Made by a program: the position numbers and the translations under genes
DNA from: an uncultured Pseudomonadota bacterium
GTDB taxonomy: Bacteria > Pseudomonadota > Gammaproteobacteria > Methylococcales > Methylomonadaceae
Length of the DNA stretch: 64,000 nt
Assembly: GCA_903848935.1 (NCBI GenBank)
Contig: CAINHO010000028.1
Span: 1 to 64,000 of the forward strand
Reading direction: 5' to 3'
The notes under the pieces: model-generated
Seen by the model: the letters and a program-made list of their open reading frames with translations, nothing else
What the model was told of the DNA's origin: nothing
Database searches by the model: none
Shown: positions 903-7,900 of the stretch, piece by piece
Layout: each line of letters opens with the position of its first letter
How positions within the stretch are numbered: the stretch's first letter is position 1

Positions 903-2582
903 ATGCAAGAAAACTTCCTCACCGTTCTACAAAACAAAGGCAAACTTTCCCAGTCCGATTTAAAAAAAGTGGAACGAATGCAAAAAACCGCTGTCGCTGA
1001 AAGTTTGCCTGCGTTGCTGATTAAACTTGGGCTGTGTTCAGAACTCGACGTGGCATTGGCATTTGTTGAAAGTGGCAATTTTTCTAAAATTACGCCTGAA
1101 CAATATCCGCTAGAAAAAACGTTGCCCGACGAAATTTCGCTACGTTTTTTGAAGCATTATCATCTAATCGGTTTAAGTTCGGACGAACTACACATAACTG
1201 TTTCAATGCTCGACCCTGAAGATGAATTTGTTTTGGATGCGCTACGTTTGGCAACAGGCAAAACAATTGTGCCGCAAGTGGGCGTATTATCTGAAATCGA
1301 TGCAGCAATCACGACACAATATGAACAAGGTCAGACTAAAACTGAATCGCTCGATGATTTGAGTTTTGACGAATTGGGCGAAGAAGATTTAGCGCATCTG
1401 AAAGATTTAGCCAGCGAAGCCCCCGTGATTAAAATGGTTAACGCGATTATGCAACGTGCTATCGAAATGAAAGCCTCCGATATTCACATCGAACCGTTTG
1501 AGCAAACGTTAAAAGTGCGTTTGCGTGTCGATGGCGTGTTGCAAGACATTGAAGCTCCGCCGGTGAAATCAACAGCCGCCGTGATTTCGCGTATTAAAAT
1601 CATGGCGAAACTCAACATTGCCGAACGCCGTTTGCCGCAAGACGGTCGGATTAAAGTGCAAATGCTTGGTAAAGAATTGGATTTACGGGTTTCCACCATT
1701 CCAACCATGTACGGCGAAAGTGTAGTTACTCGTCTGCTCGATAAAGAAAATACCGTATTAGATTTTGAAGCGTTGGGTTTTGGAGGGCGACAATTACAAC
1801 AATTTCTCGATGTTCTCGCGCAACCACATGGCATTATTTTAATCACCGGACCAACAGGTTCGGGCAAATCGACTACGATGTATGCGGCGTTGAAGCAATT
1901 AAATACTACCGCGCGAAAAATTATCACGGTTGAAGATCCTGTCGAATACCAAATGGACGGTATCAATCAAATTCAAGCCAAACCTCAAATTGGACTGACG
2001 TTTTCGGTCGCATTACGTTCGATTGTTCGCCAAGACCCTGACGTGATTATGATTGGTGAAATGCGTGATTTAGAAACGGCGCGAATTGCGGTTCAATCTG
2101 CGCTCACGGGGCATTTAGTGCTTTCGACTTTGCACACGAATGATGCCGCTGGTGGTGTAACCCGTTTGCTCGATATGGGTTTGGAAGAATATTTACTGAC
2201 TTCAACAGTGAATGGCATTTTGGCACAACGGCTAGTGCGACAACTTTGTAAATCTTGCAAACAGCCTTACGTTGCGCCGAATGAAATCGTAGATGAAATG
2301 CGTTTACGGCGTTTTCAACCTGATGGTGAAATTACGCTTTTCAAACCGATTGGTTGCACGGCGTGTGGTGGTTTAGGTTATCGTGGACGATTAGCAATTA
2401 TCGAATTTTTGTCGATGACCGACCCGATTCGTAAATTGATTATGGCACACGCTTCAGCTGGCGCGATTGAAACCGTGGCGCGTGAAGAAGGCATGACGAC
2501 GTTATACGAAAATGGTTTACAAAAAGTGTTGCAAGGCGTGACTACGTTGGAAGAAGTGATGCGCGTAACTTCGGAGAATTGA
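903..2582 (+). CDS. gspE: Type II secretion system ATPase GspE (PilB/GspE family)
   Basis: Walker A GPTGSGKST, Asp box, Walker B DPDVIMIGEMRD, CxxC zinc motifs (CKSC, CTAC). Confidence 0.93.
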   Translation: MQENFLTVLQNKGKLSQSDLKKVERMQKTAVAESLPALLIKLGLCSELDVALAFVESGNFSKITPEQYPLEKTLPDEISLRFLKHYHLIGLSSDELHITVSMLDPEDEFVLDALRLATGKTIVPQVGVLSEIDAAITTQYEQGQTKTESLDDLSFDELGEEDLAHLKDLASEAPVIKMVNAIMQRAIEMKASDIHIEPFEQTLKVRLRVDGVLQDIEAPPVKSTAAVISRIKIMAKLNIAERRLPQDGRIKVQMLGKELDLRVSTIPTMYGESVVTRLLDKENTVLDFEALGFGGRQLQQFLDVLAQPHGIILITGPTGSGKSTTMYAALKQLNTTARKIITVEDPVEYQMDGINQIQAKPQIGLTFSVALRSIVRQDPDVIMIGEMRDLETARIAVQSALTGHLVLSTLHTNDAAGGVTRLLDMGLEEYLLTSTVNGILAQRLVRQLCKSCKQPYVAPNEIVDEMRLRRFQPDGEITLFKPIGCTACGGLGYRGRLAIIEFLSMTDPIRKLIMAHASAGAIETVAREEGMTTLYENGLQKVLQGVTTLEEVMRVTSEN

Positions 2583-4504
2583 ACGTGAATGCCAAACTTC
2601 ATCAGCTATCCGTAGATAAAGCCGCCGAAGTGGTTGGTGTTTCTACAGCAACAATGCGGAATTGGGTAAAAGCAGGTCATATAACACCAGTGAAACAACG
2701 ACCGCTCTCATTTTCAAACAAAGATATTAATAAATTAAAAAATAGTCTTAAAAATGGTTCACTGCAAAAATTAACAACAAGAGCAAATAAGGTTCATTCG
2801 ACATCAAACATATTGCCATTTGAATGTGCTTCAAATGCAATTTTTTTTGATAATGTTGAAACCATTAAGGCTTTTGTTGATGAGAAAAAATTAAATTTAA
2901 ATAGCGTATTGTTTGTAGCGACAATTAAAGTTTTAGCAAAAAAAAACGAGGTTACATTTCATAACATCGAAAACGTATTTTCTGAAAATTCCTTTAAAAA
3001 TTGGAAGCGTAAATCTGTAAAAGTTGAGGTTGAAAACTGGTTACAAGAATTAAGCAATACGAAACAAAGTCAAAATGATTATGCAAAACTTTACGATTTA
3101 CTTGTTTTATCGAATGCCGATTTTTTAGGATTGTTATACCAATCATTGAGTAATGAAGGTAGCAAATCCGCTAAAGGCAGTTATTACACGCCTTTGAAAT
3201 TGATTGAAGATTCATTGTGTGAAATCAAAAAAAATTCAAATAATACATTCTTAGATCCTTGTTGCGGAACGGGAAACTATCTAATTTCTGCGGCGAAAAT
3301 TTTACAATTACAACCAGAAAAAATCCTTGGTTTTGATATTGATTCACTCGCTGTGAAAATTGCCCGAATCAATTTGTTACTTGCTTATCCAAAAATAGAT
3401 TTTTCACCAAATGTTTATTGTTTGGATTCACTCAATGAATTAGCAACGGGTAACGTTTCTTGCCAAACCAACGAGTTTTTAAATTCAATTGATGTGATTG
3501 CAACCAACCCGCCGTGGGGCGCATCAAAAAATAACTCGATTGAAACTTTTTCGTTGTTTTTACAAAAATCACTTCATTTGTTAAAGGATGGTGGGCAACT
3601 ATCGTTTGTTTTGCCAGAATCAATTTTGAATGTAAAAACACATTCCATCATTCGGCATACGCTTTTAACACAAGGAAAAATTTTAAAAATAATAAAATTA
3701 GGTCGGCAATTTACGGGGGTTTTTACACCTGTTATTAGATTAGATTTTGTAAAAACTTTAAAAAATACTGACAATTTAGTCACAATTCAAAATGATAAAA
3801 ATGTTTTTCATCTCGAACAAAAGCGTTTTTTGACTAACTCAAATTATATTTTTGACATTGATGTTTCTGCTGACGAAGCAAAACTTTTACAAAAAATTTA
3901 CGCCATTCCACACAATACGCTATTTCAAAATGCAGAATGGGCATTAGGAATTGTGACGGGAGATAACAAAAAACATCTTTCTGATGTGAATCTTCAAAAT
4001 TTAGAGCCTGTTTTCCGAGGCTCGGATATTCAAGCGTTTTTTGTAAATGAACCAAAATTATTTTTGAATTTTGAACCAAAAAACTTTCAGCAAGTTGCCC
4101 CAGAACGATTTTTCAGAATGCCAGAAAAGTTAATTTATCGATTCATTTCAAAAACGCTCACTTTTGCTTATGACGACAAACAACGATTAACGCTGAATAG
4201 TGCAAACATTTTGATTCCTAAAATTCCAAATGTCAGTTTAAAAGTGGCTTTAGCTTATTTAAATTCAAGTCTGTTTCAATACTTATTCAAAAAACAATTT
4301 TCAACACATAAAGTATTGCGCGGCGACCTTGAAAAATTACCGTTTCCTATCTTGAGCAACTCGAAACATAACGAAATAGAGCAAATAATTGAGCAAGTGT
4401 TAAAAGGCAAAAGTAAGTATGACCAGTTAGATGCGTTGATTTTTTCAACGTTTCATTTATCGAATTCTGAAATAACGACAATTCACCAAGGATTAAAAAA
4501 GTAA
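2579..4504 (+). CDS. N6-adenine DNA methyltransferase (Eco57I/TaqI-like) with N-terminal MerR/excisionase-like HTH
   Basis: Motif I 'FLDPCCGTGNYL', motif IV 'NPPWG', C-terminal TaqI-like specificity region; N-terminal 'SVDKAAEVVGVSTATMRNWVKAGHITP'. TTG start at 2579 or GTG at 2585. Confidence 0.85.
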   Translation: MNVNAKLHQLSVDKAAEVVGVSTATMRNWVKAGHITPVKQRPLSFSNKDINKLKNSLKNGSLQKLTTRANKVHSTSNILPFECASNAIFFDNVETIKAFVDEKKLNLNSVLFVATIKVLAKKNEVTFHNIENVFSENSFKNWKRKSVKVEVENWLQELSNTKQSQNDYAKLYDLLVLSNADFLGLLYQSLSNEGSKSAKGSYYTPLKLIEDSLCEIKKNSNNTFLDPCCGTGNYLISAAKILQLQPEKILGFDIDSLAVKIARINLLLAYPKIDFSPNVYCLDSLNELATGNVSCQTNEFLNSIDVIATNPPWGASKNNSIETFSLFLQKSLHLLKDGGQLSFVLPESILNVKTHSIIRHTLLTQGKILKIIKLGRQFTGVFTPVIRLDFVKTLKNTDNLVTIQNDKNVFHLEQKRFLTNSNYIFDIDVSADEAKLLQKIYAIPHNTLFQNAEWALGIVTGDNKKHLSDVNLQNLEPVFRGSDIQAFFVNEPKLFLNFEPKNFQQVAPERFFRMPEKLIYRFISKTLTFAYDDKQRLTLNSANILIPKIPNVSLKVALAYLNSSLFQYLFKKQFSTHKVLRGDLEKLPFPILSNSKHNEIEQIIEQVLKGKSKYDQLDALIFSTFHLSNSEITTIHQGLKK

Positions 4505-5235
4505 TGGAACAATTAAAAGCAAAACTTATTGGGCTTGTTGAAACGCTCGAAAAACAAAAACACGATGATGTTATGCAACGTTTAGATGATTTGGTTTCAG
4601 TTTATCCATTCAATGATTATGAATTTTTAATTTCATCTTTAATGGGTCACGGCAAAATTTCAATCGATGATTATCACGAACTTCGTGATGATTACATTGC
4701 TCGAAATATGTTTTTGTATATTTTTGAAATTAGCGCACCGCGCAGTTTTGGCGAATCATGGGCGCAAGGCAATTTAAAAACACTTTGCCCCGAATTGGTT
4801 AAACCAACTAAAAAAATAGATGTGAATTATTCAGGGCAATACGATTTCTTTTTAGACAACAAAATAAGAATTGAAGTCAAAGCCTCGAGAGCTGTTGATT
4901 TTGACAGTAACGAACCTTTGTACGTTAAAGCATTGGCTTCGGATTCGATCGCTAAATTCGATATGAATTTTCAGCAAGTGAAGCCCGCTTGTTGTGATGT
5001 TCTAATTTGGGTAGGCGTTTGGCGTGATGTGGTGCGTTATTGGGTACTTTCCTCGGACGAAGTTGCACAAAATAAATACTATTCAACAGGGCAACATCGT
5101 GGAAATACTGGCGAAGGTCAAATTCATTTGAAAGAATCTAATATCGCAGAATTTGCGGCTTTTGAATCTTCGGCTAGAAATCTTGTTGATGATATTCGGG
5201 CTGCTTATTTACGACAACGTGGAAATAAAGAATGA
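4504..5235 (+). CDS. Putative type II restriction endonuclease (PD-(D/E)xK-like)
   Basis: Overlaps the methyltransferase stop; 'YDFFLDNKIRIEVKASRA' resembles a D...ExK nuclease core. Confidence 0.7.
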   Translation: MEQLKAKLIGLVETLEKQKHDDVMQRLDDLVSVYPFNDYEFLISSLMGHGKISIDDYHELRDDYIARNMFLYIFEISAPRSFGESWAQGNLKTLCPELVKPTKKIDVNYSGQYDFFLDNKIRIEVKASRAVDFDSNEPLYVKALASDSIAKFDMNFQQVKPACCDVLIWVGVWRDVVRYWVLSSDEVAQNKYYSTGQHRGNTGEGQIHLKESNIAEFAAFESSARNLVDDIRAAYLRQRGNKE

Positions 5236-6449
5236 CCTTATTTTTTTATCAAGCCGTCAACACCGCTGGCGAAACCGAAGAAGGCGAACGCGAAGCTGTC
5301 GACGAAGCCAGTTGTGTGCAGCAATTACAAGCTGACGGCTATATTCCAATTCGCGTCAAACCCGCAAAACGCCAAGCATTTTTAGGCTTCAATTTAAGCG
5401 GTCGAAGCGGAAAATTATCCAACAAAAGCATAGTGTTATTGACGGGCGAACTAGCGATGTTGTTGGAATCTGGACTACCGTTAGACAGGTCTTTGCTTGT
5501 GTTAATGGATTTAGCCAACGATAACGAAAACTTGAGCAAACTCATCGGGCGAGTCTTAGAAAAAGTGAAAAGCGGCGTGTCGCTCGCCGACGCATTCGAA
5601 CAACAAACTGGCGTTTTCAGTAAATTTTATTTAAACATGATTCGTGCAGGTGAAGCGGGTGGAAATTTAGGCGAAGTGTTAAACCGAATGGCGGTGTATT
5701 TAGAAAGCTCGCAAGAACTGAAAGAAACCGTCAGTACCGCGTTAATTTATCCGACAATTTTGTTGGTGATGTCGCTGGCTTCGCTGTTTATTATGCTGAC
5801 ATTCGTGGTGCCACAATTTAGCGAAATGTTTGCCAGTGCAGGTAAAGCCTTGCCAGTTTCGACACAAATCGTCGTGGGTTTAGCGGACTGGTTACAACAT
5901 TATTGGTGGATTGTGATTGGTGGCGTGGTTTCGATTATGACGTATTTCAATTTCCAACTCGGCAATCCTGAAACTAAAAAAGTGTGGGACGGACGGTGGT
6001 TAAAATTACCGCTCGTCGGCGAAATGATTTTGAACAAAGAAGTCGCTAACGTGACGCGCACTTTGGGAACACTTTTAGGAAATGGCGTGTCGATTTTATC
6101 GGCGTTTATTATTGTCCGAGAAACCGTTGATAATTTGGTCGTTGCCGCTGCGTTGCACGATACAGAAGAACAAATTAAACAAGGTAAAACGCTATTTGAC
6201 GCACTCGAACAAAAAGCAATTTTCCCCAAAATGGCGATGCAAATGATAAAAATGGGTGAAGAAACAGGGCATTTAGAAGAAATGCTTTTGCGCGTTGCCA
6301 CGATTTACGATAAACAATTGCGCGTATCGATTGCCCGAATGTTAGCGTTACTTGAACCTGCGTTGATTATTACGCTCGGCATTATGATTGCTGGAATTAT
6401 CGTGTCGATTTTGTTGGCAATTTTGAGCGTGAATGATTTGGCGGTGTGA
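5232..6449 (+). CDS. gspF: Type II secretion system inner membrane protein GspF
   Basis: T2SF family: duplicated 'GELAMLLESGLPLDRSL' / 'TLGTLLGNGVSILSAF' segments, three TM segments, C-terminal 'LLEPALIITLGIMIAGIIVSILLAIL'. Confidence 0.93.
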   Translation: MTLFFYQAVNTAGETEEGEREAVDEASCVQQLQADGYIPIRVKPAKRQAFLGFNLSGRSGKLSNKSIVLLTGELAMLLESGLPLDRSLLVLMDLANDNENLSKLIGRVLEKVKSGVSLADAFEQQTGVFSKFYLNMIRAGEAGGNLGEVLNRMAVYLESSQELKETVSTALIYPTILLVMSLASLFIMLTFVVPQFSEMFASAGKALPVSTQIVVGLADWLQHYWWIVIGGVVSIMTYFNFQLGNPETKKVWDGRWLKLPLVGEMILNKEVANVTRTLGTLLGNGVSILSAFIIVRETVDNLVVAAALHDTEEQIKQGKTLFDALEQKAIFPKMAMQMIKMGEETGHLEEMLLRVATIYDKQLRVSIARMLALLEPALIITLGIMIAGIIVSILLAILSVNDLAV

Positions 6450-6490: not shown

Positions 6491-7900
6491 CTACGCTGCA
6501 GCAGAAAAAAGTGAACCTGAGCCAGGTTGAAGTGAATTACCATTTGCGGTATTTGCTGACAATTGCGTTAAGAAATCTTGTAAATTTACAGGCGAAGTTG
6601 AGCCACCTAAAGATTGAACAAGGTTAGTAAAATCCGTTTGTAACGCGCTGTTTTTTCCATTAGAACCGCTTAATGAATTCGTTAAATTTTGCAAATTAGC
6701 CGTGGGATTATTGTACGCCGTTTGTATTTTTGATGGCGGAACTGAAACACCCGTCACGCTGAGTCCCATATCTTCAAGCATCGCAACATCTAACGTAGAA
6801 ATTGATTTTACTTCGCCAGTGTTGATGGATGCTGACATTAAATCAGTGGGATTTAGCACATGATAATAAGCAGACCCTACTCCAGCACTTGCAGGAGCTA
6901 ATGGTACTGGCTTACCTGCATTCACTGTTTCAGCGTGACGACCTACAAAAAATACAGGCGAATTACTGGGTGGTGTCACTACAGTTGGATCCGTAGATGG
7001 TGTTACTACAGTTGGATCCGCAGGTGGTGTTACTACAGTTGGATCCGTAGATGGTGTCACTACAGTTGGATCATTTGGTAATGTGACTAATGTGTCATAG
7101 GCTGTTTTTAAAGACGCACTCTGTGCCAAATTTCCCGTAAAGGCTAAACCATGCAAAATTTCATGTGTCAGAATCGTTGTTAAATCATATTTATCAGGTG
7201 CTGGTGTGCCACTGAATGACATTTTATCCATATTCGCCAAATTGATATAAAGCGTTGAATCGGGTGCGTTCGGACTAGAATCTACCCCTTTAATTGAATC
7301 AGCAATAAATGAAGCATCTGTTGTTTTCGTTGGATTAGTTGGATCCGTCGGATTTGCTGTAGTGGTAGTAATTAGGGAAGCATTCGCTTGAGCCAAAGTG
7401 CCGCTATCTATAGATTCAGTCAATACTTTCAAGTCGAAAACAACTTTTGAGCTAATGTATTGTCCGATATTATCCAAAGCTGTTTTAATGCTGCCACTTA
7501 CATTGGCAAGATTATTACCCAAATTTGCCTGACTTAAATCGACGTTGTATTTAAAATTCGTCCCCCCTGAAATTTGCGTGCTATTTTCAACACTGGCCGC
7601 AGAGGTTAACGCTTGTGGATTACTTTGCGTTAACGTTTTAGATAAGTTTTGCACAAAAACTTGCAGCGCATCATGAGTATTCGGCGATGTATTCCCTGCA
7701 TTCACGTCAGCAGTGTTTACACCCAAATTTTGCAACGATTGAATCACGCTTTGCATCAATGAGTCGTTGTTACTATTTGCACTCGATGTTGAAGGCGTGA
7801 CATTCTTGCTTGCGTTATCCGTTTGTGTCGTTTGTGTATTCACATTTGCTAATGTGAGAATTTGATACGGTGTTGAAGACCGATTGATTGTATAGGTCAT
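6491..7900 (-). CDS. Putative extracellular zinc metalloprotease-like protein (HExxH) with TDPTVVTPP repeats
   Basis: 'LTTILTHEILHGLAFTG' zinc motif, 'NPTDLMSASINTGEVKSISTLDVAMLEDMGL' downstream; low-complexity Pro/Thr insert; no evident signal peptide. Confidence 0.65.
   Translation of the reverse strand: MTYTINRSSTPYQILTLANVNTQTTQTDNASKNVTPSTSSANSNNDSLMQSVIQSLQNLGVNTADVNAGNTSPNTHDALQVFVQNLSKTLTQSNPQALTSAASVENSTQISGGTNFKYNVDLSQANLGNNLANVSGSIKTALDNIGQYISSKVVFDLKVLTESIDSGTLAQANASLITTTTANPTDPTNPTKTTDASFIADSIKGVDSSPNAPDSTLYINLANMDKMSFSGTPAPDKYDLTTILTHEILHGLAFTGNLAQSASLKTAYDTLVTLPNDPTVVTPSTDPTVVTPPADPTVVTPSTDPTVVTPPSNSPVFFVGRHAETVNAGKPVPLAPASAGVGSAYYHVLNPTDLMSASINTGEVKSISTLDVAMLEDMGLSVTGVSVPPSKIQTAYNNPTANLQNLTNSLSGSNGKNSALQTDFTNLVQSLGGSTSPVNLQDFLTQLSANTANGNSLQPGSGSLFSAAA
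6973..7080. repeat. 27-bp tandem repeat x4 (GGTGTCACTACAGTTGGATCCGTAGAT)
   Basis: Direct reading of four consecutive near-identical 27-mers, in frame (9 aa per unit) in the metalloprotease gene. Confidence 0.9.

Follow-up and report, generated by a model that had tools for sequence, protein, structure and literature searches.

The window, the 64-kb stretch of DNA analysed here, comes from a Methylococcales bacterium and carries a restriction-modification (R-M) gene pair between gspE and gspF. The reading we favour (probability about 0.78) is of a functional type II R-M pair forming a cassette of two genes alone, with no mobility genes, which would have entered the gspE–gspF junction with a 15–16 bp duplication of a start region and would since have spread and been lost mainly by homologous recombination. 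Entry would have duplicated the start region of gspF, the left copy now starting the methyltransferase (MTase) gene and the right copy still starting gspF. Spread and loss would have run mainly through recombination in gspE and gspF, much as for a “minimal mobile element”. Transcription would come from the gsp promoter or from weak internal promoters, with stop–start overlap where the MTase meets the restriction endonuclease (REase) and where the REase meets gspF; a promoter scan returned no promoter-like signal above chance, and co-transcription with gspE together with stop–start coupling would be plausible. The N-terminal helix-turn-helix (HTH) of the MTase may repress its own gene, a form of self-repression described for other MTases (PMC3874152).

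An R-M pair at this position had been proposed in an earlier note on this DNA; both proteins have family matches, and the open reading frames (ORFs) lie where the note had put them (Table 1). The cassette measures ~2.65 kb, with the MTase gene followed by the REase gene in the same direction as gspE and gspF, and is as AT-rich as previously described: its GC content is 0.333, compared with 0.423 on average across the window, making it the lowest-GC stretch of that length within the 64 kb. This composition, together with the empty sites in close relatives described below, also upholds the note's view of a seamless acquired insertion. Its statement that all three junctions overlap holds for two of them: MTase and REase overlap by 1 nt (TAATG), and REase and gspF by 4 nt (ATGA, in this window and in congener G009), whereas the sister species G001 has TAA-AC-GTG without overlap at the latter position. 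gspE and the MTase gene are instead separated by a 2-nt gap, because the MTase most likely starts at the conserved GTG 2585, the note's alternative start, and not at TTG 2579. Both G001 and G009 keep GTG 2585, which follows GGAG (2573–2576) at a distance of 8 nt, whereas the TTG is replaced by TTA in G009 and so is not conserved.

Table 1. Features at the gspE–gspF junction of the window.
Feature	Position	Strand	Basis
gspE, type II secretion ATPase, left flank	903..2582	+	TIGR02533, 654 bits, above cut-off
Left copy (probable) of gspF-type translation-start region, GGAG-AATTGAAC-GTG-A, now MTase start	2573..2588	+	Same motif before gspF in empty congeners
Gamma-class N6-adenine DNA MTase with N-terminal HTH segment	2585..4504	+	TaqI_C PF12950, N6_Mtase PF02384, Eco57I PF07669, PADLOC type II MTase PDLC03348 (7e-103); HTH_17 slightly under Pfam cut-off
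Type II REase, PD-(D/E)XK pattern (D114, E124, K126)	4504..5235	+	PADLOC type II REase PDLC03414 (E 1.8e-72); homologue alignment; model and weak nuclease fold matches
Right edge GGA-AATAAAGA-ATG-A, probably the right copy of the start region in decayed form, used by gspF	5221..5235	+	Near-intact in G001
gspF, type II secretion platform protein, right flank	5232..6449	+	TIGR02120 E 6e-114 (strong, yet under that model's cut-off), PF00482

The site was compared in 18 genomes, the window genome (G000) and 17 congeners, one of which (G017) was too fragmentary to score. The pair is present at the identical gspE–gspF junction in G000, G001 and G009. Comparing gspE–gspF spacing in relatives, a check the earlier note had proposed, revealed an empty junction with 1–4 nt between the two genes in nine congeners (G003, G005, G007, G010, G011, G012, G013, G014, and G016). 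These empty junctions prove the insertion, and with two congeners occupied and nine empty it is neither an assembly artefact (its edges are common to three separately assembled genomes) nor a conserved gsp neighbour (it is absent from most congeners and from nearly all family relatives examined). The five remaining scored congeners (G002, G004, G006, G008, and G015) have gspF at a place apart from gspE, with unrelated genes around it; separated gspF copies follow an HD-domain gene or have flagellin genes nearby (loci L039, L040, L041, L042, L048, L085–L088, and L090).

G015 carries the pair elsewhere, between uvrB and ubiH, at a site that lacks it in the sister genome G002, and homology to this relocated copy is restricted to the two R-M genes. 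The bare gene pair therefore moves between unrelated sites too. At that locus (L038, 4070–7496) the cassette lies behind a short ORF that may be truncated (MIKLNTLLKDSAYQLTQF...), and a PIN-type toxin pair comes between it and ubiH, an arrangement resembling a small defence island. An insertion hot spot holding other cassettes was rejected on the ordinary neighbours seen where gspE and gspF are separated (the five congeners above and family member G028); at the intact gspE–gspF junctions of the 18 genomes, a search for alternative cassettes found none, only this cassette or nothing. Carriage by a phage or plasmid was likewise rejected: among plasmids there was a single weak match, and among phages none.

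In the empty congeners, the gspF start consists of GGAG or GGAA, 7–10 nt and RTG, spanning the gspE stop codon. The occupied genomes keep this motif at the left edge, where the RTG is now the MTase start. At the right edge, G001 has GGA-AATTAAAC-GTG-ACC before gspF, a near-exact copy of the left edge that agrees at 15 of 16 positions, spacer bases included, with the caution on single-base details that applies to G001 and G015 as low-coverage metagenome assemblies (~3x). Aligned with the left copy, it outscores all 1,101 gene starts except the template's own, the MTase start. The absence of edge repeats reported in the earlier note is thus correct for this window alone but does not extend to the sister species, with its near-perfect direct repeat of 15–16 bp. 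The right copies in G000 (GGA-AATAAAGA-ATG) and G009 (GGA-AATAAAAA-ATG) are at background level, matching no better than 9–29% of gene starts, and the start-region stretch is absent from the G015 cassette.

The G001 repeat is probably a 15–16 bp target duplication that copied the start region of gspF, a reading also favoured by the lack of this stretch in the G015 copy; of the occupied genomes, G001 alone shows it clearly. Convergence, whereby a ribosome site, stop and start of this type would evolve in any gene joining the operon at this point, is a rather unlikely alternative: it draws on GGA, a stop and RTG being functional signals that selection would favour in any case, and on the background-level right edges of this window and G009, but it is opposed by the G001 edge, whose agreement takes in the spacer and surpasses every gene start other than the template. 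By extension of the target-duplication reading, R-M cassettes might generally insert into active operons through duplication of the translation-start region where one gene's stop meets the next gene's start, the MTase gaining the host's ribosome site and start codon and the downstream gene keeping its own, so that insertion would be silent for the host operon by construction; as a general route, we consider this doubtful.

Cassette presence is patchy across the genus, since the rpoB tree groups occupied with empty genomes (G009 with G010, and G000 with G003/G011). Over the last 1.2 kb of gspE, occupied G009 and empty G010 are 97–100% identical. Between G000 and G001, dS is 0.27 for gspE, 0.34 for MTase, 0.53 for REase and 0.35 for gspF; the median for 68 ORFs, a mechanically compiled set that includes the locus itself, is 0.81. 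These low values point to a more recent exchange of the whole block, within which the REase dS exceeds that of its neighbours; other low-dS blocks also exist elsewhere in the two genomes. Both features weaken the distinction between one old insertion with later losses, repeated insertion at the same place and exchange of alleles. Relative to G009, the dS of the block (0.81–1.13, genome median 0.87) fits old shared ancestry. Compared with G000/G001, the G015 copy has a dS of 0.57–0.71 and the G009 copy 1.06–1.24, and rpoB places G015 further out.

Exchange of a mobility-gene-free cassette by homologous recombination would fit both the G009/G010 gspE identity and the low G000–G001 block dS. The same two observations argue against a single ancient insertion that was inherited vertically, cleanly lost on many separate occasions and little exchanged among species: G009 and G010 are near-identical in gspE yet differ in the cassette, and the G000–G001 block is low relative to the genome median. 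The G015 copy, closer to G000/G001 than that of G009 in conflict with the rpoB tree, adds to these objections. We therefore regard such a history as unlikely, even though all three occupied genomes have identical edges and the G000–G009 cassette dS (1.06–1.13), like that of genes shared since long ago, ranks high among the genome values (median 0.87).

R-M cassettes set between conserved genes are a kind already known, and the gspE–gspF cassette is a clean new case. A close parallel is offered by the R-M genes at pheS–pheT in Neisseria meningitidis, which are minimal mobile elements (PMC3082526, PMC3898611, PMC7973814). Like these, it is a whole-gene R-M cassette between two conserved genes, free of mobility genes, variable in presence among close relatives and with signs of homologous exchange with its flanks. 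Unlike them, the gspE–gspF site shows one cassette type only, the cassette would be exchanged between species of a genus, and its edges bear a probable target duplication. Because alternative cassettes were not found at the site, we describe it as behaving like a minimal mobile element and do not file it as a full member of that class.

R-M units inserted with short or long target duplications are on record (Nobusato 2000 and Furuta 2010, cited in PMC3031569 and PMC3874152). As those cases are described in the citing papers, they share with ours a short direct target repeat at both edges and the lack of a transposase; the repeat here differs in spanning a stop/ribosome-site/start junction inside an operon and in being intact in one of three genomes. 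The NlaIV R-M genes of Neisseria lactamica, reported in a title cited by PMC3388099 to be flanked by leucine biosynthesis genes, are similarly placed among housekeeping genes and belong to another enzyme family. The probably duplicated start region is the only unusual trait of the gspE–gspF cassette. One genus offers occupied, empty and relocated copies, and with them a base-exact example of a mobility-gene-free defence cassette entering and leaving a conserved gene pair harmlessly.

By family membership, the cassette is a type II R-M system, with an MTase of a known methylating family adjoining a REase of a known restriction family. It resembles systems of the REBASE-type families PDLC03348 and PDLC03414 with a gamma (TaqI-like) adenine MTase, matching over most of both lengths and with the MTase directly before the REase. 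The catalytic motifs of the MTase (DPCCGTG and NPPW) are intact, and its domain hits include a TaqI-type specificity domain. Searches of Pfam, NCBIfam and PDB with the REase sequence gave no match. Its residues D114, E124 and K126, which form a PD-(D/E)XK pattern, are invariant in an alignment of 21 homologues (YSGQYD...IEVKAS). A fold search with its AlphaFold2 model (mean pLDDT 80) gave weak matches, none below E 0.001, and the best were nucleases (NhoI and I-Ssp6803I, then PvuII and DpnI).

At each of the 16 distant loci inspected, an adenine MTase immediately precedes the REase homologue. The partner is of gamma type in 11 and a different MTase of ~330 aa in five, with a DPPY motif read in three of the five and a shared N-terminus in the other two. 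The PDLC03414 family thus pairs elsewhere also with a different, DPPY-type MTase, and no Pfam model or solved structure was found for it; since such a family partners two unrelated MTase classes, the specificity of the REase is worth determining. Site avoidance failed to predict the recognition site, since the genus avoids dozens of different 6-bp palindromes.

Within the genus, dN/dS is 0.16–0.22 for the MTase and 0.06–0.12 for the REase. Both genes are under purifying selection, the REase most strictly, and both products are therefore kept functional. That either enzyme is inactive, for instance a solitary regulatory methylase beside a decaying endonuclease, is very improbable: no characterised close relative of the REase was found, which leaves some room for the idea, but selection stricter than on the MTase and an invariant catalytic pattern speak against it.

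Equally improbable is the addiction device suggested in the earlier note, a cassette wired so that its loss is polar on gspF and switches it off, tying the cassette to secretion; the REase/gspF overlap in this window and G009 suits such a device, but the nine cassette-free congeners keep a clean gspE–gspF junction, gspF behind the cassette retains its own GGA-N8-RTG start region, G001 lacks the overlap, and gspF does not adjoin gspE in five congeners. Ordinary R-M addiction, in which cells losing the MTase are killed, may operate and needs no gspF.

Three further observations concern the genus and the neighbourhood of the cassette. First, 6-bp palindromes are rare genus-wide, with observed/expected ratios of 0.43 in G000 (the window plus 40 stretches, 686 kb), 0.50 in G001 (450 kb) and 0.41 in G009 (285 kb), compared with ∼1.02 for other 6-mers and 0.83 in family relatives. 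In G000, 24 of the 64 palindromes fall below 10% of expectation; examples of observed against expected counts are ATGCAT (0/203), GGCGCC (1/155) and ATTAAT (10/512), and also GGCC (135/1767). This genus-wide avoidance may reflect prolonged and varied pressure from type II restriction.

Second, eight of the 18 genomes, G000 and the 98%-complete G010 among them, lack a uvrB above the family cut-off; nine have a full copy, and that of G005 is split over contig ends. Nucleotide excision repair may have been lost in part of the genus. Third, next to gspF on the opposite strand (window 6491–7900, −) lies a gene for a 469-aa protein without a Pfam match, containing Thr/Pro-rich repeats (TDPTVVTPP) and a segment, HEILHGLAFT, that resembles a zinc-metalloprotease motif. 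It is 55–61% identical in congeners, where the neighbouring mdh exceeds 93%.
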